Shown in pieces: positions 10,791 to 52,808 of a stretch of 52,946 nt of DNA; position 1 is the first letter of the stretch; each line of letters opens with the position of its first letter. Source of the stretch: Terriglobia bacterium (GTDB lineage: Bacteria; Acidobacteriota; Terriglobia; JAIQFV01); assembly GCA_020072965.1 (NCBI GenBank), contig JAIQFY010000035.1:1-52946 (forward strand), given 5' to 3'. The position numbers and the translations under genes are program-made. The notes beneath the pieces are model-generated. The model made no database searches. It saw only the letters and a list, made by a program, of their open reading frames with translations, and was not told the origin of the DNA.

Positions 10791-11414
10791 GAGCCATCCT
10801 CAAATAGATTAAGGAACTATATGCGTCCCGAATTGGAGGTCGACGAGTCGCGTTGTTCTGCCTGAATTTTCGAAAGAGGCTTGCTAGCACGATGCCGCCG
10901 CGGTCACCATCTTACAACAAATAAGCTTCTCACACGGGATATGATGTGCCCGCCTTGATGCCCCGGAGTTGATTCCTCTTCAAAAATAAACAACGCAGGG
11001 AAACTCACCCCGACGTACATATTCTTTCTGTTACAAATTTGACAATTACCGTTATGAATAACGTAAACCGTTAACCGCAGATGATGCCCCGCTTTCTTCA
11101 ATCGTCACAAACTGTACGACTTGGCCTTTTGGCATGCCATGTGCCAAGGAGTTCTTGTTGATTTTAATGGGAGAATTGAAGTGTGCTCATCTCCGGTGCT
11201 GAAATTTAACTCAACTGGTCTCGTCACAATTCTGACACACGGGTGAAATATTTTTGTGAAGTGCCTGATGTAAAAGATGACATGTACGATGCGAGAGGGT
11301 AAGACGATGAAGCGGCGGGATCAAGTGAAAACGAAATCAACGGGAATGATGATTCAGAGTTCCCCTCATAAATCCGGTCTGCCAGTGACCAACAAACTGG
11401 GAAAGGAAGATGTC
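10791..11414. other. Leader region of the first fimbria-like block
   Basis: About 620 AT-richer bases containing several dyads: GTTACAAATTTGACA (11030-11044), CGTTATGAATAACG (11050-11063), a GTCACA half-site (11104) and TTGGCA/TGCCAA arms around 11134-11152, followed by the palindrome at 11223. No gene with a family signature is seen. The open frame from 11277 reads through into the subunit gene but lacks a ribosome site and signal peptide until 11415. Confidence 0.45.
11223..11238. promoter_or_regulatory. Candidate operator GTCACAATTCTGACAC, block 1
   Basis: A dyad with GTCA and TGAC half-sites six bases apart. It lies about 177 bases ahead of the first subunit gene. The same 16-mer with one change lies ahead of the second block at 12834. 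The shared position points to one regulator for both blocks; the regulator is not identified. Confidence 0.5.
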
Positions 11415-11921
11415 ATGAAAAATAATTGGAAAGCTCTTTTGATTTGCACTGCGGTTGTGGCACTGGTTCTCTTGATGGGAACTTCAACCTTCGCCGCCAC
11501 CCAGACTTTGACCATCAATGCCACGGTGGCCGCCCGGGCGGAATTGACACTGGCTCCAACGACGATTAATTTTGCGGACGCGAGTCCCGCGACCTCGCCG
11601 AACATCACTGCCAATACCCCGGTAACCGTGACGGCGAACGTGCGTACCGCAAAAGCTTCGACCGCAACTCTTATGGCTCTGGCTGGCACCGATCTCACCT
11701 CGGGGACGGATACCATTCCGATTACAGCCGTTACTTGGACAGCGTCAGCGTTGCCGTTTATTGCAGGGACCATGAGCCATACCTCCGCGCAAAGTGGTGC
11801 GACGTTCAGCGCAGGCAGCGGTTCGTATAGCGGGACATACACTTTCACATTGGCCAATAGCTGGAGTTACAACACGGGCAGTTATGTGGCGACAGTCACC
11901 TACACGCTGACTGCCCCATAA
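11415..11921 (+). CDS. Fimbria-like secreted subunit, paralogue A (no cysteines in the mature part)
   Basis: A 168-residue protein: signal peptide MKNNWKALLICTAVVALVLL with cleavage after STFA near residue 28, then an all-beta mature chain rich in Thr, Ser, Ala. It starts with an alternating hydrophobic strand (TQTLTINATVAARAEL) and ends with ANSWSYNTGSYVATVTYTL. Both stretches recur in the paralogues C and D. An N-terminal alternating strand plus a terminal strand with aromatic residues is what donor-strand-assembled pilins show, so a fibre subunit is likely, but no named family (e.g. spore coat U) can be fixed by eye. Start chosen for GAAAGGAAG 5-8 bases upstream and the signal peptide. It is first of two subunits in block 1. 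Confidence 0.65.
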   Translation: MKNNWKALLICTAVVALVLLMGTSTFAATQTLTINATVAARAELTLAPTTINFADASPATSPNITANTPVTVTANVRTAKASTATLMALAGTDLTSGTDTIPITAVTWTASALPFIAGTMSHTSAQSGATFSAGSGSYSGTYTFTLANSWSYNTGSYVATVTYTLTAP

Positions 11922-11925
11922 TGAG

Positions 11926-11981
11926 CCCGCTGCTGGCTTCGATAGAGATCGCAGCGGGACGTGCAGGAATGTTCCCGCTGC
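11926..11981 (+). promoter_or_regulatory. Three-segment stem-loop between subunit genes A and B
   Basis: CCCGCTGC (11926-11933), GCAGCGGGA (11951-11959) and TCCCGCTGC (11973-11981) lie just after the stop of A. The middle segment can pair with either neighbour (8 or 9 perfect pairs), giving mutually exclusive hairpins. A related TTCCCGCTGC stem follows subunit D. It may tune expression of the minor subunit, as hairpins after major pilin genes do elsewhere. Confidence 0.5.
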
Positions 11982-12017
11982 CTCATCTATCCCCTTGAGA
12001 GGCCCGTGAGTGTGAGG

Positions 12018-12578
12018 ATGAAGGCCATGAGACCCGTATGGCAGAATAAACCTGAGCCAAAGGCAATGGCCATGTTCACTCAGCCACTGATCGCGGGAAT
12101 CCTAATCGTGATGGGCCTGCTGATCACGAACTCCCTCTCCCACACCCAGACCTTGTCTCTTAGCCTCAATCCCAGTTCGATTAATTTCCCCGATCAAAAT
12201 CCAACCAACTTTCCAAGCATTTCGGCAAGTGCTATTGTACAAGTGCAGGTCACCGCTTCCTGGGGCAATGGAACCTGGTCGGTCACAAGCCTGGCCGGCG
12301 GAGATCTCCTGAACTCCGACGGAAGAAGCGTCATCCCAATCTCCAATGTCCGCTGGACCGCTTCGCGAGCCGCCGGCAACTGCTCCGGGGGATGCTCCTG
12401 CATGGGTGGAACAGCCAGTAGATCGAGCCCGCAACATATCCTTGAAGGGAGTGGGTATACGGGGTTCTTAGGATTTGGCAGCTATAGCTGTAATGTGAAT
12501 TTCACGCTCGTGAACGACTGGGCTTACAACACGGGGTCCTATTCCCAAACGCTCACGGTCACCGCGGCAAATCCGTAA
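12018..12578 (+). CDS. Fimbria-like secreted subunit, paralogue B (four-cysteine type)
   Basis: About 186 residues with a hydrophobic export segment (LIAGILIVMGLLITNSLS) and a mature chain that starts TQTLSLSLNPSSINFPDQNP. It aligns with E (14367) and more distantly with A, C and D. It has the conserved C-terminal NDWAYNTGSYSQTLTV. Unlike A, C and D it carries a C-x3-C-x-C cluster (CSGGCSC, near residue 118) and a fourth Cys before the last strands (SYSCNVNF); E has the same spacing, so two disulfides are likely. This could be a minor, adaptor or tip subunit. Start is uncertain: ATG at 12018, 12027 (GAGG 9 bases upstream) and 12066 all precede the hydrophobic segment. Confidence 0.6.
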   Translation: MKAMRPVWQNKPEPKAMAMFTQPLIAGILIVMGLLITNSLSHTQTLSLSLNPSSINFPDQNPTNFPSISASAIVQVQVTASWGNGTWSVTSLAGGDLLNSDGRSVIPISNVRWTASRAAGNCSGGCSCMGGTASRSSPQHILEGSGYTGFLGFGSYSCNVNFTLVNDWAYNTGSYSQTLTVTAANP

Positions 12579-13196
12579 GCGAATTCCTCGAAGTTGTCCC
12601 GGGGGTTGAGAGATCTGATCGGATTGGATTTCTGGCGATTCTCTGTGAGGCATTCTGGCCATTCTGATTCTTTTTATTCAACGCCATTCAACATCCCCAG
12701 ATTAACCTGTTCTAAACGCACTTTTGCCAACCCCTTGATGCGTGGGCTAAGGTGTCTTTATTTGAGGAAGAGATCCAGTGATTGGACCCTCCCCAAACGC
12801 CACTCCGATCCGCTCGTCGGCCAGACCAAAAACGTCACAATTTTGACACCACTTTCTCTAGAGTTACACCTACCTCCCTTTCATTTCAAGCTCTGAAATG
12901 TCACAAAAGTGTTAACTTATGACATTTATTTAGAGAGGCTTATGTCGTCGGACCCCTGTAAAATAAGGACCTCCCGAAGGGTTTGATTTTCCTCCCTATC
13001 CACCCTCAAAGAACATTCCTACCGTCACATTTTTGTCATATGAAAGTTATAAAACATGACTGTGATTATCGAGAGGGGTTTAACAGTGGACTTGACAGAG
13101 CAGAAAACGACAAAGCAATCGGCGATCAGCAAGTCCAGTGTTAAGCCCCTTGATGAGTCCGAACAACAAATCCATTTGAGACGAAAAGAGGAAAAC
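12579..13196. other. Leader region of the second fimbria-like block
   Basis: About 620 bases, AT-rich toward its right end, without a convincing gene. It holds the palindrome at 12834, further GTCACA half-sites at 12900 and 13024, and the probable promoter of genes C-D-E. A reading frame from 13056 runs into gene C but has no ribosome site or signal peptide before 13197. Confidence 0.45.
12834..12849. promoter_or_regulatory. Candidate operator GTCACAATTTTGACAC, block 2
   Basis: Differs by one base from the site at 11223 and has the same GTCA-N6-TGAC dyad. It lies about 350 bases ahead of subunit gene C, with two extra GTCACA half-sites between (12900, 13024). Confidence 0.5.
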
Positions 13197-13715
13197 ATGA
13201 AAAACAATTCGAGACCCACCGGGACGCTACTTTCGATTCTTGCCGCGATGGTGATGGTTGCAATGATGGCGGGCTCCACACTTTTTGCGGCCACCCAAAC
13301 CTTAACCATCAATGCCACGGTCTCCGCTCGTGCCGAGCTGACGCTGTCACCTTCAACAATCAGCTTTGCGGATGCAAGTCCGACTATCTCGCCCACCATC
13401 GCTGCCAACTCCACGGTGGCCGTGACGGCCAACGTGCGGACGGCTGCAAACAGCAAGGCGACCCTTCTGGCGGCAGTCAGTGGAGATCTGACATCGGGGG
13501 GTGACTCGATTCCTGCCAGCAATGTCAGCTGGACGGCTTCGGCGGGTCCATTCATTGCCGGGACCTTGAACAAGACCACAGCGCAAAGTGCGGCCAATTT
13601 TGCAAACGGGAGCGGTTCGTACAACGGAGTTTACACCTTTACCCTGGCCAATAGCTGGAGCTACAACACGGGAAGTTATGCTGCGACGGTAACGTACACT
13701 CTGACCGCCCCATGA
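13197..13715 (+). CDS. Fimbria-like secreted subunit, paralogue C
   Basis: A 172-residue paralogue of A and D. Signal peptide MKNNSRPTGTLLSILAAMVM with cleavage after TLFA near residue 32; the mature chain begins TQTLTINATVSARAELTL, nearly identical to A. The middle has the repeated GDLTSGGDSIPASNVSWTAS and FIAGTLNKTTAQS blocks, and the end is ANSWSYNTGSYAATVTYTL. No cysteine in the mature part. The ATG at 13197 has AAAGAGG 5-6 bases upstream. A and C are close enough to suggest a recent duplication. As first gene of block 2 behind a long leader, it may be the major subunit of that block. Confidence 0.65.
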   Translation: MKNNSRPTGTLLSILAAMVMVAMMAGSTLFAATQTLTINATVSARAELTLSPSTISFADASPTISPTIAANSTVAVTANVRTAANSKATLLAAVSGDLTSGGDSIPASNVSWTASAGPFIAGTLNKTTAQSAANFANGSGSYNGVYTFTLANSWSYNTGSYAATVTYTLTAP

Positions 13716-13761
13716 ATTTTGGCTTTCAAAATCCTGAATGAATAACCCTACGGAGAACAAC

Positions 13762-14274
13762 ATGAAAAACATTTGGAAAATCCTGATGACAATCACAGTG
13801 GTTGCCGGCGCAGCCCTCATCCTGAGTACTGCAGCCTTCGCCGCTTCCGACAGCAAGACTCTGACCATCAATGCCACCATTTCGGCTCGAGCGGAGCTGG
13901 TGCTTGCACCCACGACGATCAACTTCGCCGATAACAGCCCGACGACGGTATCTTCTGTTTCCGCTGACAACCCTGTCGCGGTGACCGCCCGGGTGCGCAC
14001 GGGAAAAGCGACCGCAGCGACATTGACGGTTGCCTCCGCCAACGATCTGACTTCGGGTTCGGATACCATTCCAATCAGTGCGGTGAGTTGGACCGCTTCC
14101 GGCGCGCCGTTCATCGCAGGGACCTTGAATAAAGCCTCAGCGCAGAGCGGGGCCACCTTCGGCAATGGCAGCGGGACGTACAATGGCACATATAGTTTCT
14201 TCCTCGCCAACAACTGGACTTATAATACCGGCAGCTACTCAGCGACGGTGACTTACACGCTGACTGCTCCGTAA
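13762..14274 (+). CDS. Fimbria-like secreted subunit, paralogue D
   Basis: A 170-residue paralogue. Signal peptide MKNIWKILMTITVVAGAALI with cleavage after AAFA near residue 27; mature start SDSKTLTINATISARAELVL, middle NDLTSGSDTIPISAVSWTAS and FIAGTLNKASAQSGATF, end ANNWTYNTGSYSATVTYTL. No cysteines. The ATG at 13762 has GGAG 6 bases upstream; the in-frame ATG at 13738 has none. It sits 46 bases after C and 92 bases before E, so C-D-E read as one transcript. Compared with A and C it is more diverged in the SP-to-TAN loop. Confidence 0.65.
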   Translation: MKNIWKILMTITVVAGAALILSTAAFAASDSKTLTINATISARAELVLAPTTINFADNSPTTVSSVSADNPVAVTARVRTGKATAATLTVASANDLTSGSDTIPISAVSWTASGAPFIAGTLNKASAQSGATFGNGSGTYNGTYSFFLANNWTYNTGSYSATVTYTLTAP

Positions 14275-14286
14275 TGCGCCCTTTAC

Positions 14287-14332
14287 AGGTTCTGTTCCAT
14301 TGGGCTGCGGGAGGGGGATAGAACCTTCCCGC
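14287..14332 (+). promoter_or_regulatory. Competing stem-loops between subunit genes D and E
   Basis: AGGTTCT (14287-14293) pairs with AGAACCT (14320-14326). GCGGGA (14307-14312) pairs with TCCCGC (14327-14332). The stems interlock, so only one forms unless a pseudoknot is made. The TTCCCGCTGC end matches the third segment after gene A, at the same place relative to the four-cysteine subunit gene. Confidence 0.4.
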
Positions 14333-14366
14333 TGCACCAGCTTCCTCGAGGAAAATAGGTGAACCA

Positions 14367-14879
14367 ATGATTGAGAAAAAGACAGCGCATTTAGCAATCG
14401 CAATTCTGGCGTTGGCCGTTACCTGGGTGTGGAGTTCGCCATCATTTGCAGCGATCGCCTTTACTCTTACTGTTACTCCGTCCTCAATCAGCTTCCCCGA
14501 TGCCAATCCGAGCTCAGTGTCTCAAATTCCTGCCAGTGCAACAGTCCTGATAAAAGTTAGGGTGACTAACGGAGCTAATCAGAATTGGTCGGTTCACCTT
14601 TTGGCAAACGGCGATCTTCTGAATTCCGATGGTGTGAGCAAGATCCCTATAGCGAATTTGACTTGGAACGCAACAATGACCGGACGGGCTTGTACTAACG
14701 GATGCACGTGCGTATCTGGGACGATGAGCGCGACGGTCCCCCAAGATGTAATACGGGGGCTCGGGAACACTCCGAACGGCCAGTTCAATTGCAACACAAA
14801 TTTTTTGCTGAATAACCAGTGGGGTTACAACACGGGCCCTTACACGCAAACCATCACCGTGGTCACCGCATCGCCATAA
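14367..14879 (+). CDS. Fimbria-like secreted subunit, paralogue E (four-cysteine type)
   Basis: A 170-residue protein: signal peptide with hydrophobic LAIAILALAVTWVW, cleavage after SFA near residue 28, mature start AIAFTLTVTPSSISFPDANP. It pairs with B: shared PSSI(N/S)FPD, GDLLNSDG, a C-x3-C-x-C cluster (CTNGCTC), a late Cys (FNCNTNF) and the end NNQWGYNTGPYTQTITVV. The block-wise order major-then-cysteine subunit (A-B and C-D-E) suggests that the pair was duplicated as a unit. AGGTG lies 5 bases before the ATG. A tip or adaptor role is inferred only from the cysteines and the order. Confidence 0.62.
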   Translation: MIEKKTAHLAIAILALAVTWVWSSPSFAAIAFTLTVTPSSISFPDANPSSVSQIPASATVLIKVRVTNGANQNWSVHLLANGDLLNSDGVSKIPIANLTWNATMTGRACTNGCTCVSGTMSATVPQDVIRGLGNTPNGQFNCNTNFLLNNQWGYNTGPYTQTITVVTASP

Positions 14880-15385
14880 TCCCTCCCCTTTTGATCTTCT
14901 CGGTCCTAATTTACTCCACTTGCCGAATAACCGAATGCCGGAGCCATAAATTGTCAATCTCGAGGTCTCCTGGGGGAGCCGAAGTGATTCATAAGGATAG
15001 AGATGTTCGATTGGAGGATGGTTTGCACATAACTGGAAGATGGCTTGCCCTGGGTTTCCGCCTGACCATCCAAACGATTGTAACCGGCCGTGAAAGAGTT
15101 CCTCCTTCGCCGGATCCGAATCGAGCGTCCAAAATGAGATTTCTTACTTTAGAGGAGACCTCTTGGCTGGAATGTGTGCTTTGAAATCTTACTTTCAACT
15201 ATCACCTCACAATCAGCAGCAAAAAATCCTATCATCCCCCTTTATCGTCAAAGTTTTGGGATATTTTTTTCGGATAATGCAGCGTAGTGAAAGTGGGGGG
15301 ATTGGAAGTGGAAAGAGGTAGGACAAGTTGAGTAAAGAATTTTAAGAGGAATCATACAAATCCAAGCAGGGATAAGGGACCAAAG
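14880..15385. other. Gap between the last subunit and the chaperone gene
   Basis: 506 bases. Open frames here have no signature. Near 15241-15290 is an AT-rich stretch (GGGATATTTTTTTCGGATAATG) that could hold a promoter for the chaperone-barrel pair. Confidence 0.4.
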
Positions 15386-16267
15386 ATGCAAGGGATGAAA
15401 ACAAAGAAAAGCAGAGTCGGGCGGCAGGATACAACGGCGGCCGGTTTGTCGGGGTTGATCCTGGTGGCCGCATGGATTTTAGGATCAGGAATTACCCTTC
15501 GCGCGGATGTCGCCATCGGAGTCTTTCCAATCCGTGCAGAGCACGAAGTTCAGGCAGGGCAAACCAAGACTGACGGCATCACGGTCGACAATGACTCTGC
15601 TGAAATCATTCATATGCGCGTCACGGTGGCGGACTGGTATCTTACGCGCGATGGGAGCCCCACCTTCGTGAAAAAGGGAAAGTCCCCCGAGTTTTCCATG
15701 AGCGAATGGTTCGTGGTGAATCCCGCAGAATTCGTTGTACCGCCCCACGGACATCAGATCATCCGTTACACTTTCACGGTTCCCAAGGACACCCCCGACG
15801 GTGGATACCACACTGCAATAATGATTGAATCGGTTCCCAATATTGCGCCGGGACAGGACGTGCATGCCGCCTACTTGAACGCCCGGGTCGGGGCCATTAT
15901 TTATGATCGCGTGGGAAAAACCACTCCGCAGGGAACCATCACCGCTCAGCAGGTCGTGATTGACCAGAAAAACTCGGGCCAGGTGGGAGTCCAGATTACC
16001 TTGAAGAACAGCGGTTCCTCTCATTTCCGGTTCAAGGGGGAGAGTAAGATCATCGACAAGCAGGGAAAGGTAATTGAAACCCTGCCGATCAATGACTCCG
16101 TAGTTCTCCCGCAGTCGGAGCGGGACATTTTCGTTCCAGTCAAGGGGATCCTCCCCACGGACGGGTTTACGATTGTCAGCAGCCTGGACATCGGTCTGAA
16201 AGAGTTGCTGGAGGCAGAAACCAGGGTGGAACCGAATCCTTCAAGCTTACCGGATGTTAAAAAGTAG
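15386..16267 (+). CDS. PapD-like periplasmic fimbrial chaperone
   Basis: A 293-residue exported protein with a long signal peptide (hydrophobic LSGLILVAAWILGSG, cleavage after TLRA near residue 40). The N-terminal domain follows the PapD pattern: IGVFPIRAEHEVQAGQTKTD, then VDNDSAEIIHMRVTVADWYL, EWFVVNPAEFVVPPHGHQII and a strand ending in TVPKDTPDGGYHTAIMIESV, corresponding to the F1-G1 region that donates a strand to subunits. The second domain (about 185-280) is beta-rich with VQITLKNSGSSHFRFKGESK. In chaperone-usher systems such proteins fold pilins in the periplasm. Position after five subunits and directly before the barrel gene, with no spacing, supports this role. Archaic or alternative-clade chaperones are the closest comparison. 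Confidence 0.7.
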   Translation: MQGMKTKKSRVGRQDTTAAGLSGLILVAAWILGSGITLRADVAIGVFPIRAEHEVQAGQTKTDGITVDNDSAEIIHMRVTVADWYLTRDGSPTFVKKGKSPEFSMSEWFVVNPAEFVVPPHGHQIIRYTFTVPKDTPDGGYHTAIMIESVPNIAPGQDVHAAYLNARVGAIIYDRVGKTTPQGTITAQQVVIDQKNSGQVGVQITLKNSGSSHFRFKGESKIIDKQGKVIETLPINDSVVLPQSERDIFVPVKGILPTDGFTIVSSLDIGLKELLEAETRVEPNPSSLPDVKK

Positions 16268-19200
16268 ATGCGACCCATGAAGACCAACGCGAAGAAATCA
16301 TCTCAGTTGCAACGCCGACTGGAAGCGGTCCTTTGCGCTGCACTGATGTTGTGCTTCCTGTTGGTTCCGGCTCAACCCCTTCAGGGAGAAGAAGCCGGCG
16401 GGGCAACCGTCCTCTTCCAGTTCAATAACAACGCGACCGGGGCGTCTTCCAATATTCTCAACAATCCACTCTTTTCCCTGGCCATCCCGGGGTACACGAA
16501 TGCCGACCTCCGGGTTGACACCTACCAGTTCATTCCGAACTGGGGGTTGCTGAGAACCTCGTTCGATATGGCGAACACCAACAATTCATTCCGTCCCAGT
16601 CGGGGATTCCTCGAATTATCAGACTATCATCTCGGAGACTGGAAGGTGGATATCGCGGCAGGTGATCAGCCGTTTGTCGCCTATAATCTCGATTTTGGAT
16701 TGAATTCCCTGTATAACCCGTTTGCCTATCTGCGCGGAGGGAGGGTGACCACCTCGACCGACCGCATGTCGTTCACGGTTTTTGGAGGGCGCGCCGCCGC
16801 CATGAATGGGTTCTTCGGCGAGTCGCTGCGTGTGAGCGAAGAAAATATCATGGGAGCCCGGGGGGTATTCACTCCCTCATCGAAATTGAAAATTGGTGCC
16901 AGCCTGGTCCACACCAGTGCCCCGGAGAATTCGACCGATCTAACCATCCCGCAGTCAGATACCATAGCGACGATGGACGCGCTGTATCAGCTCAATCCCC
17001 ATGTTCAATTTCTGGGGGAATCTTCGATTTCAAAGTTCTCCGGTTCACCTGACGCCGAGCATGGCAATGGGATGGACTTCTCTTATCTCTTTGGGACCAA
17101 GCTGAAGGGCGTGCGGGGCAGTGCGGAAATCACCTGGCAGAGGTTGGGACCCAATTATCTTCCGCTCAGCTTCTTCAACCTGGGGGATCGCGAAGGACTC
17201 TTCAGCTCCGGCGATTATCAGGTGAATCACAAGCTGTCCCTGTACGGAGCGTTCAATCGATTCCAAACCAATCTGCTTGATTCACACACCCAGACGGGAC
17301 TTCAAGTCAACAATGAGTTCATCGGGGCGCGGTATATGTTGCGTCCCCACAGTACCGTGAATATTCGGGTGGGAAACGCCGGGATCGAATCGATTCCGCT
17401 CAGTCCCAATCTGGTGTCCACTCACAGCCATACGCTGGACCTGGAGTTTATACAACAGGTTCAAACCTGGCGGTTCCTGGTGCGTTACATGGATAGCCGC
17501 GACCTTGATTTCACGACTGCTTCCCAACATACCCTGCGTCAGCGCATGGAGCTCGAAGTCCGGAAGACCTGGAAGAATGGAACGAACCTCTGGGTTTCGG
17601 GTGGGACCCTCAGCGAGTCCCAGCAGGCGCCTCAGGAAAACAAACACGTGAGCCTGGTGGGAGGCGCGGGATTCAACTGGAACGTGCGGCCCACCCTTTC
17701 GTTTTACTCAGAGCTGAACTGGAATCAGGATGTGGCGGTGGTGCGGACCTCGAGCTTCAACTATACTTCATTGAATGGCGGAATGAATTGGGCACTTTCC
17801 CATGGAGTCCAGGTCTCTTTGAACGGCCAGTGCAACCGCTCAGCCAGCAAGATGAACGTCCTGGACTTCTACACGGTGCCCCCCGAAAATCTGAACGACC
17901 TGCAGAATCTCTTGCTAAGCCAGCAGCTCAACCGATACCAGGTCACTTTTAGGGTTCAGAAGACCTTCCGATGGGGAGAGCGCCCTCAGGAAATCCTACT
18001 TAGAGATTCAGGTGCTTCCGCGTTAGCGGGTAGACCTCATGATTTTGGGAACATCTCGGGAATTGTCTTTAACGACCTCGACCGAAGCAGCCTGAAGGAC
18101 GAAAAGGAAGCGGGCGTTTCCAACGTCACAGTCGTTCTTGATAAGAGAGCGAAAGCGACAGTGGATGTTCAAGGTCGGTTTGAATTCAAGAATGTCCCGG
18201 TCGGAAAGCATACCGTGGAGTTGGATTTGCTCACGCTGCCGGCGACGTTCGACGCCGCGGCAAATACCCGGGTGGCTGTCAACGTGGCGAAGCGCGCTAC
18301 CGCCGATGTTCAGTTTCCGCTGTTGGAACTCGGGAAGGTGTCCGGAAAGGTCGTCCTCGTGAATGGGATGGACTCCAACGGCCTTCGCAAGGAAATTGGA
18401 GAAAGCAAGGTCCCTGAACTGCCGGGCATTAATATCATCATTCTCTTGAACGAAACCTACAAGGTGACATTCACCGACGGGGACGGAGAGTTCGAGTTCA
18501 GCAATATCCCGAGCGGTGATTACCGCGTCCGCATCGATCGCGGCACGCTGCCGGAATTCTCCTCCGTCGAGTCTGAAGAAGTGCAAATGATTCGAATCGC
18601 ACCCGGGGAGAAGCTGTCGAACCTCAAGTTTGTGGTGAAGATCAATCCGCGCCCGAACCGCCGCCTCCTGGTGGCGTCCCAGACCCTGCCGCAACCCCCG
18701 AAGGTGGAACCAGCAGCCACCGCCGTCGTCAACTCCGGGGCCAGGAAACGGGTCCGGTCGGAAGTGACGCAGAATAGCAAGTCGCCCGCTGATAATCGTA
18801 ATGGGAAAGCGACCCCAGGTGTCTCGGCTCTCGCAGGCGGCAATGTGCCCTCCCTCGAAGACATTGATCGGTGGTCAAAATCCTCCCAAAATGGAATCTT
18901 GATCCATAAAGTCCGGGCAGGAGAAACCCTGGAGATTTTGGCGCTGAAGTACTATCAGACAAAAACGAAATGGACGCTGATCTTCAATGCCAACAAAGAT
19001 CTGATCGGCGCTTCCAGGAAATTACATCCCGGCCAGGAGTTAAAGATCCCGGTGGAAGCGGAGCCGGTTTCGGGACTGAACAAGACGACAGGCCAAGGTT
19101 CCGCAAAGATTCATGTGGTCCAGCCGGGAGAAACCCTCGGAAGTCTTTCCCTGCGGTATTACAAGACGGAGACCAAGTGGAACGTGATCTATGAAGCGAA

Positions 19201-19402
19201 CAAGGCCCAATTGGCCGCTTCCAAGATTCTTCGAATCGGACAAAAATTAATGATCCCCGCCAGCCCCCAATTGGCGAAGTCGGTTGCTCCTGACAAAGAC
19301 GTGACCAATTCGAGTACCAGGGGGGCGTCCTCCAGCTCCACCGACTCTTCCGCTGTGTCCGCGCCATCACCCGGTACCGGAAACAATCCACTCTCGCACT
19401 GA
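16268..19402 (+). CDS. Large outer-membrane protein: putative beta-barrel, two SdrD-B-like domains, two LysM domains
   Basis: A 1044-residue exported protein whose ATG abuts the chaperone stop (TAGATG). Signal peptide with core AVLCAALMLCFLLVP. Residues about 45-575 are a long series of alternating strands (e.g. WKVDIAAGDQPFVAYNLDFG, VQVSLNGQCNRSASK) as in a large barrel. About 594-660 (SGIVFNDLDRSSLKDEKEAG) and 690-765 (FTDGDGEFEFSNIPSGDYRV) are SdrD-B/carboxypeptidase-regulatory-like beta domains. Then come a low-complexity linker and two LysM modules (about 878-930 and 947-998; HKVRAGETLEILALKYYQ, HVVQPGETLGSLSLRYYK) that bind peptidoglycan. By position it replaces the usher. I see no clear usher plug or periplasmic N-domain, so an usher function is inferred. 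C-terminal tail is Ser/Thr-rich. Confidence 0.65.
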   Translation: MRPMKTNAKKSSQLQRRLEAVLCAALMLCFLLVPAQPLQGEEAGGATVLFQFNNNATGASSNILNNPLFSLAIPGYTNADLRVDTYQFIPNWGLLRTSFDMANTNNSFRPSRGFLELSDYHLGDWKVDIAAGDQPFVAYNLDFGLNSLYNPFAYLRGGRVTTSTDRMSFTVFGGRAAAMNGFFGESLRVSEENIMGARGVFTPSSKLKIGASLVHTSAPENSTDLTIPQSDTIATMDALYQLNPHVQFLGESSISKFSGSPDAEHGNGMDFSYLFGTKLKGVRGSAEITWQRLGPNYLPLSFFNLGDREGLFSSGDYQVNHKLSLYGAFNRFQTNLLDSHTQTGLQVNNEFIGARYMLRPHSTVNIRVGNAGIESIPLSPNLVSTHSHTLDLEFIQQVQTWRFLVRYMDSRDLDFTTASQHTLRQRMELEVRKTWKNGTNLWVSGGTLSESQQAPQENKHVSLVGGAGFNWNVRPTLSFYSELNWNQDVAVVRTSSFNYTSLNGGMNWALSHGVQVSLNGQCNRSASKMNVLDFYTVPPENLNDLQNLLLSQQLNRYQVTFRVQKTFRWGERPQEILLRDSGASALAGRPHDFGNISGIVFNDLDRSSLKDEKEAGVSNVTVVLDKRAKATVDVQGRFEFKNVPVGKHTVELDLLTLPATFDAAANTRVAVNVAKRATADVQFPLLELGKVSGKVVLVNGMDSNGLRKEIGESKVPELPGINIIILLNETYKVTFTDGDGEFEFSNIPSGDYRVRIDRGTLPEFSSVESEEVQMIRIAPGEKLSNLKFVVKINPRPNRRLLVASQTLPQPPKVEPAATAVVNSGARKRVRSEVTQNSKSPADNRNGKATPGVSALAGGNVPSLEDIDRWSKSSQNGILIHKVRAGETLEILALKYYQTKTKWTLIFNANKDLIGASRKLHPGQELKIPVEAEPVSGLNKTTGQGSAKIHVVQPGETLGSLSLRYYKTETKWNVIYEANKAQLAASKILRIGQKLMIPASPQLAKSVAPDKDVTNSSTRGASSSSTDSSAVSAPSPGTGNNPLSH

Positions 19403-52517: not shown

Positions 52518-52808
52518 GTTGTCGGTTCTCAGTTCTCAGTGTGAAGCGCACCGGTGGCCTGGTGAAGGTGGCGGGATAGGGGCCGGGTTTTGGATGTCGG
52601 GGCGGAGGGACCTCACTTGTGTGAAGGCGGATGGAATCTGTAGGGGCGCACAGCCGTGCGCCCTCGAATGGTGTGATGGGGAAATTGTAGGGGCGCACAG
52701 CCGTGCGCCCTCAGCCGAAGCGGGCAGTCATATGTTGGGAATCATGAAGAGAAAAGGGACTCAGCCGCGAAGCGGCGAGATTAAGTAACCTGGGGCGCAA
52801 GCCCCAGG
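52518..52808. repeat. Cluster of repeats and hairpins after gspG
   Basis: A one-mismatch copy of the 8.1-kb arm (52518-52540), then two identical 27-base direct copies (52639-52665 and 52686-52712), each containing GGGCGCAC/GTGCGCCC with an AGCC loop, and a further hairpin CCTGGGGC-GCAA-GCCCCAGG (52789-52808) with a GCAA tetraloop. Between lies GCCGC/GCGGC. No gene is seen. Confidence 0.65.

Follow-up and report, generated by a model that had tools for sequence, protein, structure and literature searches.

The window, by which we mean the whole 52,946-nucleotide stretch of DNA that was analysed, comes from a soil-type bacterium and carries what is probably a divergent chaperone-usher (CU)-like operon with a minimal usher, whose products would assemble a non-covalent surface fibre. 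Strand exchange between donor and acceptor subunits and secretion through the usher-like protein are the parts of this reading that we infer. The fibre is most likely adhesive and located on the cell surface. A surface fibre-assembling, CU-like system was also the original prediction for this locus, and that reading is supported and largely holds: neither of the two checks that it named, one on the fold of the subunits and one on conservation of the locus in relatives, refuted it.

The host genome is 5.9 Mb, and the operon occupies positions 11415-19402 of the window on the + strand, on which all of its features given below are located. Genes for five subunits (A to E) are followed by one for a chaperone with two Ig-like domains and then by one for an outer-membrane barrel protein. 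All seven ORFs run in the same direction, as had been claimed for five exported subunits, a chaperone and a barrel. An AAGGAAG ribosome site precedes the ATG of subunit A at position 11415, and the ATG of the barrel gene comes immediately after the stop codon of the chaperone. The host genome has a single copy of the chaperone and a single copy of the whole barrel protein. Antisense ORFs over the subunit genes (for example 13353-14213) were taken as codon-bias artefacts. At the end of the window there is a match to the Acido-Lenti-1 small RNA (52763-52808, - strand), which is also found near the operon at two loci in relatives (L039 and L058).

The earlier view of the subunits as five paralogues stands as far as paralogy is concerned, and is refined here into two classes. 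Subunits A (11415..11921; ORF from 11277), C (13197..13715; ORF from 13056) and D (13762..14274; ORF from 13738) are 59-64% identical to one another, whereas B (11961..12578) and E (14367..14879) are 32-35% identical to A. After the signal peptide, the pilin-like A/C/D class carries an N-terminal extension with the pattern (T/D)xxTLTINAT(V/I)xARAEL, and its members end in W(S/T)YNTGSYxATVTYTLTAP. The shared N-terminal strand and C-terminal end had been noticed before, and the motif is confirmed, but the exact letters given for it fail for D, which has KTLTINATI and WTY rather than QTLTINATV and WSY. The extension is TQTLTINATVAARA in A (11499..11540), with alternating hydrophobic residues, and SDSKTLTINATISARA in D (13846..13893); in C it spans 13293..13334. 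In all three subunits it is a candidate donor strand, a role that is also suggested by the model of paralogue D, where this segment is free and of low confidence.

Subunits B and E have no N-terminal strand, carry extra Cys residues, and end in YNTG(S/P)YxQT(L/I)TV(T/V)xAxP. In the CU pathway, an extension is needed only by subunits that donate a strand, and thus the B/E class fits a tip or cap role, most likely that of the tip. The two N-terminal classes, one with the alternating extension TLTINATV and one with none, co-occur at most loci and are usually adjacent.

The C-termini of the subunits were compared across 53 sequences. A Gly is present at position -14 in 47 of these and an aromatic residue at -12 in 49, with hydrophobic peaks at -8, -4 and -2. 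A Gly at -14 combined with an alternating hydrophobic terminal strand is a pattern known from pilins. The penultimate Tyr of classical pilins is not kept, and most of the subunits (36/53) have Ala at this position.

An AlphaFold model of D has a confident Ig-like core at residues 51-178 (mostly >93) and an unfolded mature N-terminus at residues 31-50. The outcome of the subunit fold check was an Ig domain resembling that of pilins, in which the N-terminal strand stays free. In a Foldseek search with this model, CfaB, a pilin, ranks first (E 5.9e-4) and pilins make up most of the top 50 matches; Fim, Pap, Csu and Caf pilins are numerous across two fold-match lists. Fold Z scores reach 8.6, which is only moderately above the level of unrelated beta-sandwiches. 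WxL structures are absent among the fold matches listed for D, although this absence proves nothing. At the level of sequence, Pfam and NCBIfam scans of the subunits gave chance matches only, and a PDB sequence search with subunit profiles found no relative. The SCPU family (PF05229) has no match in 36 subunits and none in the host genome, and profile similarity between the subunits and SCPU is weak.

The chaperone (15386..16267) was characterized by profile-profile comparisons in local mode, using mature sequences and shuffled-column controls, and the comparisons were repeated at equal depth. Against archaic CU chaperones of the same phylum it matches with a probability of 99.4 and a score of 147 over 203 columns (shuffled maximum 22), and against WxLIP with a score of 77 (shuffled maximum 20). 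Archaic CU chaperones and WxLIP reach a score of 32 with each other. Medians at equal depth are 137 for chaperone and archaic CU, 87 for chaperone and WxLIP, and 30 for archaic CU and WxLIP. Because the latter two groups match each other poorly, the chaperone family lies between them, and judged by these profiles it is homologous to both. The description of this protein as PapD-like is refined here, in that it stands closer to archaic CU chaperones and to WxLIP than to PapD.

With a profile of 19 chaperone sequences, the best match in the PDB is the solved structure of EfmWxLIP1 (E 2.6e-7, both domains), and CsuC is found at 2.5e-5. A single-sequence Pfam scan returned WxLIP_PGBD with an E value of 6.9e-5, a match that falls short of the cut-off for this family, and the chaperone of the window does not reach the DUF916 (PF06030) cut-off (23.3 vs 27.3 bits). 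One chaperone homologue in a relative (L049:6760-8211, - strand) lies just above the WxLIP_PGBD cut-off (27.6 vs 27.3 bits) and has an AMIN domain at its C-terminus. The landmark residues of CU chaperones are mostly retained: among 21 chaperones, Pro113 is conserved in 21, and Arg127 and Arg215 in 20 each. Arg215 is aligned with Arg174 of CsuC, a carboxylate anchor that helps to hold the C-terminus of the subunit (PMC4654587). The anchor of CsuC also includes Arg89 and Tyr196, and the position of Arg89 is occupied by R in 8/21 and by H in 7/21 members of the family. The chaperone has no C-terminal transmembrane helix and ends in ETRVEPNPSSLPDVKK, as read by eye.

A WxLIP-related chaperone raises the possibility of a Gram-negative WxL system, in which WxL-like peptidoglycan-binding subunits are held by a WxLIP-like protein in a short adhesive complex that surrounds the barrel, with no polymeric fibre. 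The rank of EfmWxLIP1 over both domains and the chaperone-WxLIP score of 77-87 speak for this explanation, as do the peptidoglycan-binding tails found on several barrels and the AMIN domain found on one chaperone. The subunits also contribute, since their profile scores 28.6 against WxL (shuffled maximum 17.5) and their end, YxATVTYTL(TA)P, resembles the YxxTLTWxLxxxP of WxL. However, they have no WxL family match and no dual W-x-L motif, the terminal motif being Y-T-L. The chaperone matches CU chaperones better than WxLIP (137 vs 87 at equal depth) and lacks the transmembrane helix, while the N-terminal donor-like strand and the Gly at -14 fit pilins and the barrel fold is usher-like. Thus, we regard a WxL system of this kind as unlikely.

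The outer-membrane barrel protein (16268..19402) has 1044 amino acids and was originally described as unrecognisable as a standard usher. This proved accurate: none of the 18 barrels scanned, all homologues of one another, matches the Pfam models Usher (PF00577), PapC_N or PapC_C, yet the fold matches ushers best. The same scans recover true ushers, PapD_N chaperones and SCPU pilins in the same phylum. The structure model of the barrel protein is of moderate confidence (pLDDT 72, pTM 0.51) and includes 25 long strands and one broken strand at residues 42-571 (16391..17980), with two sandwich domains and then two LysM domains after them. A total of 26 strands would fit the short periplasmic-turn pattern. 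In a Foldseek search with the model, the top 11 matches are FimD/PapC with E values down to 1.8e-18, and the next match is at 1.5e-10. When superposed on FimD, the pore part fits at 4.7 A over 358 residues, compared with 7-8 A for porins. The barrel is therefore predicted, on the strength of this model, to have the usher barrel fold.

The sequence evidence for an usher is distributed unevenly along the protein. In comparison with ushers, the whole-protein profile reaches a score of 104 (shuffled 24), whereas the barrel segment alone gives a weak score of 25 (shuffled maximum 17), and most of the usher signal sits in the two C-terminal sandwich domains. The first of these (18044..18364) is SdrD_B-like and the second (18416..18643) is CarboxypepD_reg-like, and they align in order with usher CTD1 and CTD2. 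Generic CarboxypepD_reg domains, used as a control, score higher, which weakens the evidence from these domains, although the first domain scores better against usher CTD1 than usher CTD1 does against the generic set. A PDB sequence search with the barrel protein matched essentially only the C-terminal domains.

Two parts of a standard usher are absent. There is no usher N-terminal domain, as the barrel starts at residue 42 and no sequence similarity to that domain was detected. In full-length homologues from subunit-bearing loci, 21-56 residues lie between the ORF start and the beginning of the barrel profile, with the exceptions of L063, whose N-terminal half is unaligned, and the short ORF of L049. 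The plug is likewise absent, since no inter-strand segment in the model is longer than about 27 residues and there is no similarity to the usher plug. Two outer-group barrels (L052:5295-7838, - strand; L051:8255-11407, + strand), from loci with no recognised subunits, carry an extra N-terminal stretch that resembles copper amine oxidase N1 (PF07833).

The barrel protein ends in a peptidoglycan-binding tail formed by the two LysM domains (18887..19258). The tail is OmpA in the two Geobacterales copies scanned and SPOR in L051 and L069, and many relatives have none. Because three unrelated peptidoglycan binders share this end, the C-terminus of the barrel protein would be periplasmic, as in ushers.

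These features also leave room for a large peptidoglycan-tethered outer-membrane protein of another kind that is no usher, with the fibre self-assembling or secreted elsewhere. Such a protein would explain why no usher family match is found in the 18 barrels, why the barrel sequence is only weakly usher-like and has neither plug nor N-terminal domain, and why the C-terminal domains are closest to generic CarboxypepD_reg and SdrD_B domains. The ranking of structural matches nevertheless favours FimD/PapC, the domain order is that of usher CTD1 and CTD2, and the barrel adjoins the chaperone at nearly every locus read, and we consider this explanation to be quite improbable. A standard archaic (sigma) Csu-type CU operon that was merely mis-scored would share the chaperone homology and the architecture, but it is already disfavoured and has very little chance of being correct, given that neither the host genome nor the family has an SCPU or usher match, that the same models find archaic operons elsewhere in the phylum, and that the barrel has no N-terminal domain or plug. 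Standard archaic CU operons with SCPU, PapD_N and Usher matches were seen in Acidobacteriota (G039, G046, G061, G070, G084, G087, G108 and G150), mostly in different genomes from those that carry the operon described here.

About 24 relatives, belonging to Acidobacteriota and Desulfobacterota (Geobacter, Geomobilimonas), retain the set of subunits, chaperone and barrel, and the conservation check thus found the locus to be kept as a unit. The repeated appearance of the gene set at many loci of two phyla places its association beyond chance, and the unit is real, sporadic and old. Geomobilimonas luticola (L059) and a Geobacter MAG (L061) are among the carriers, together with Candidatus Hebobacteria and other Deltaproteobacteria. 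Sampling of the host phylum gave chaperone hits in 52 of 396 genomes, and the Geomobilimonas phylum gave them in 20 of 297; in these counts, some of the weakest hits are genuine CU chaperones located next to standard ushers. Among the loci read, subunit genes adjoin the chaperone and barrel genes at L038-L050 and at most of L058-L069. The outer-group loci L051, L052, L054 and L057 have a chaperone and a barrel and no recognised subunit. A contig scan with a single chaperone as the query gave no match, and a subunit alignment used as the query was successful. At four loci, the barrel gene is immediately followed by an extra subunit-like gene in the opposite orientation (L064:15136-15633, L066:14756-15310, L068:5681-6154 and L069:14983-15510, all on the - strand).

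Riboswitches for c-di-GMP (class c-di-GMP-I) are located just upstream of subunit genes at two of the approximately 28 loci read. One precedes the first subunit gene of L063 (9161-9247, +) and the other precedes a reverse-strand subunit gene of L064 (15691-15773, -). This placement fits a role in surface attachment. The window contains no riboswitch, and candidate promoters and terminators in it are not above chance.

We propose that the operon works like a chaperone-usher pathway. The subunits have signal-peptide-like N-termini and would be exported by Sec. In the periplasm, the two-domain chaperone would bind each subunit, whose Ig fold is taken to be incomplete, and lend a strand of its own to the gap. 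Such complementation is suggested by the homology of the chaperone to CU chaperones and to WxLIP, for which strand insertion into WxL is a published prediction (PMC10599100). Chaperone-subunit complexes would then go to the barrel, where the two periplasmic sandwich domains might replace usher CTD1 and CTD2. Since the barrel has neither the N-terminal recruitment domain of ushers nor a plug, recruitment would fall to these CTD-like domains. An incoming A/C/D-type subunit would use its N-terminal strand to displace the chaperone strand from the previous subunit, and the growing fibre would pass through the barrel pore. B/E-type subunits, having no donor strand, would sit at one end of the fibre, most likely the tip. 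The pore would be anchored to peptidoglycan by the tail, which is LysM here and SPOR or OmpA in relatives.

We do not file the operon in the archaic branch because the usher signature, the usher N-terminal domain, the plug and SCPU pilins were all looked for and not found. A broader reading might well hold, and we offer it tentatively, short of favouring it. The operon could represent a separate, undescribed branch of strand-exchange fibres common to Acidobacteriota and Desulfobacterota, the usher being minimal and, in several lineages, tethered to peptidoglycan, and the chaperone and subunits of the operon could be a missing link between CU pili and WxL/WxLIP that implies common descent. A search of freely accessible literature found no published description of the operon, and the WxL literature compared here never mentions chaperones or ushers.

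If these proposals are correct, an usher does not need, in order to function, the N-terminal domain and plug that are central in current models of classical pilus secretion, and it becomes possible to test what the smallest machine for fibre export is. The chaperone family would join CU and WxL systems, which are unconnected in the WxL literature compared. It would also offer a concrete model for the poorly understood WxL/WxLIP pair, in which WxLIP acts as a donor-strand partner and either descends from pilus chaperones or is their ancestor. Finally, a surface-adhesion operon of soil and metal-reducing bacteria would gain a name, where family libraries now scatter its parts under SdrD, LysM or no match.

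Four groups of known systems offer points of comparison. TasA-type and archaeal donor-strand filaments (TLP-1, Saci thread) have a comparable Ig-like subunit fold, with a Z score of 8.6 for TLP-1 that is near the level common to beta-sandwiches, but they have no usher and have other accessory genes. Gram-positive WxL/WxLIP (DUF916-DUF3324) systems share a chaperone homologous over both domains and a similar terminal strand motif in the subunits. They differ in that the subunits of the operon have no W-x-L pair, its chaperone has no transmembrane tail, and it includes an outer-membrane barrel in a diderm host. Classical and alternative CU pili provide the best structural matches of both the barrel (FimD/PapC) and the subunit (CfaB, Fim/Pap pilins), and they share the Gly 14 residues from the subunit C-terminus, whereas the operon lacks the penultimate Tyr, a sequence match, the usher N-terminal domain and the plug. 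Archaic (sigma) Csu pili, with CsuA/B, the CsuC chaperone and the CsuD usher, differ in having SCPU subunits and 24 barrel strands, compared with 25-26 predicted here, and in having an usher with a family match, N-terminal domain and plug in place of a barrel that often carries a peptidoglycan-binding tail. With Csu, the operon shares the parts list, pilin-like subunits with an N-terminal strand that is predicted here to be free, a two-Ig-domain chaperone with an aligned conserved Pro and an Arg174-type residue, and a barrel followed by two sandwich domains.
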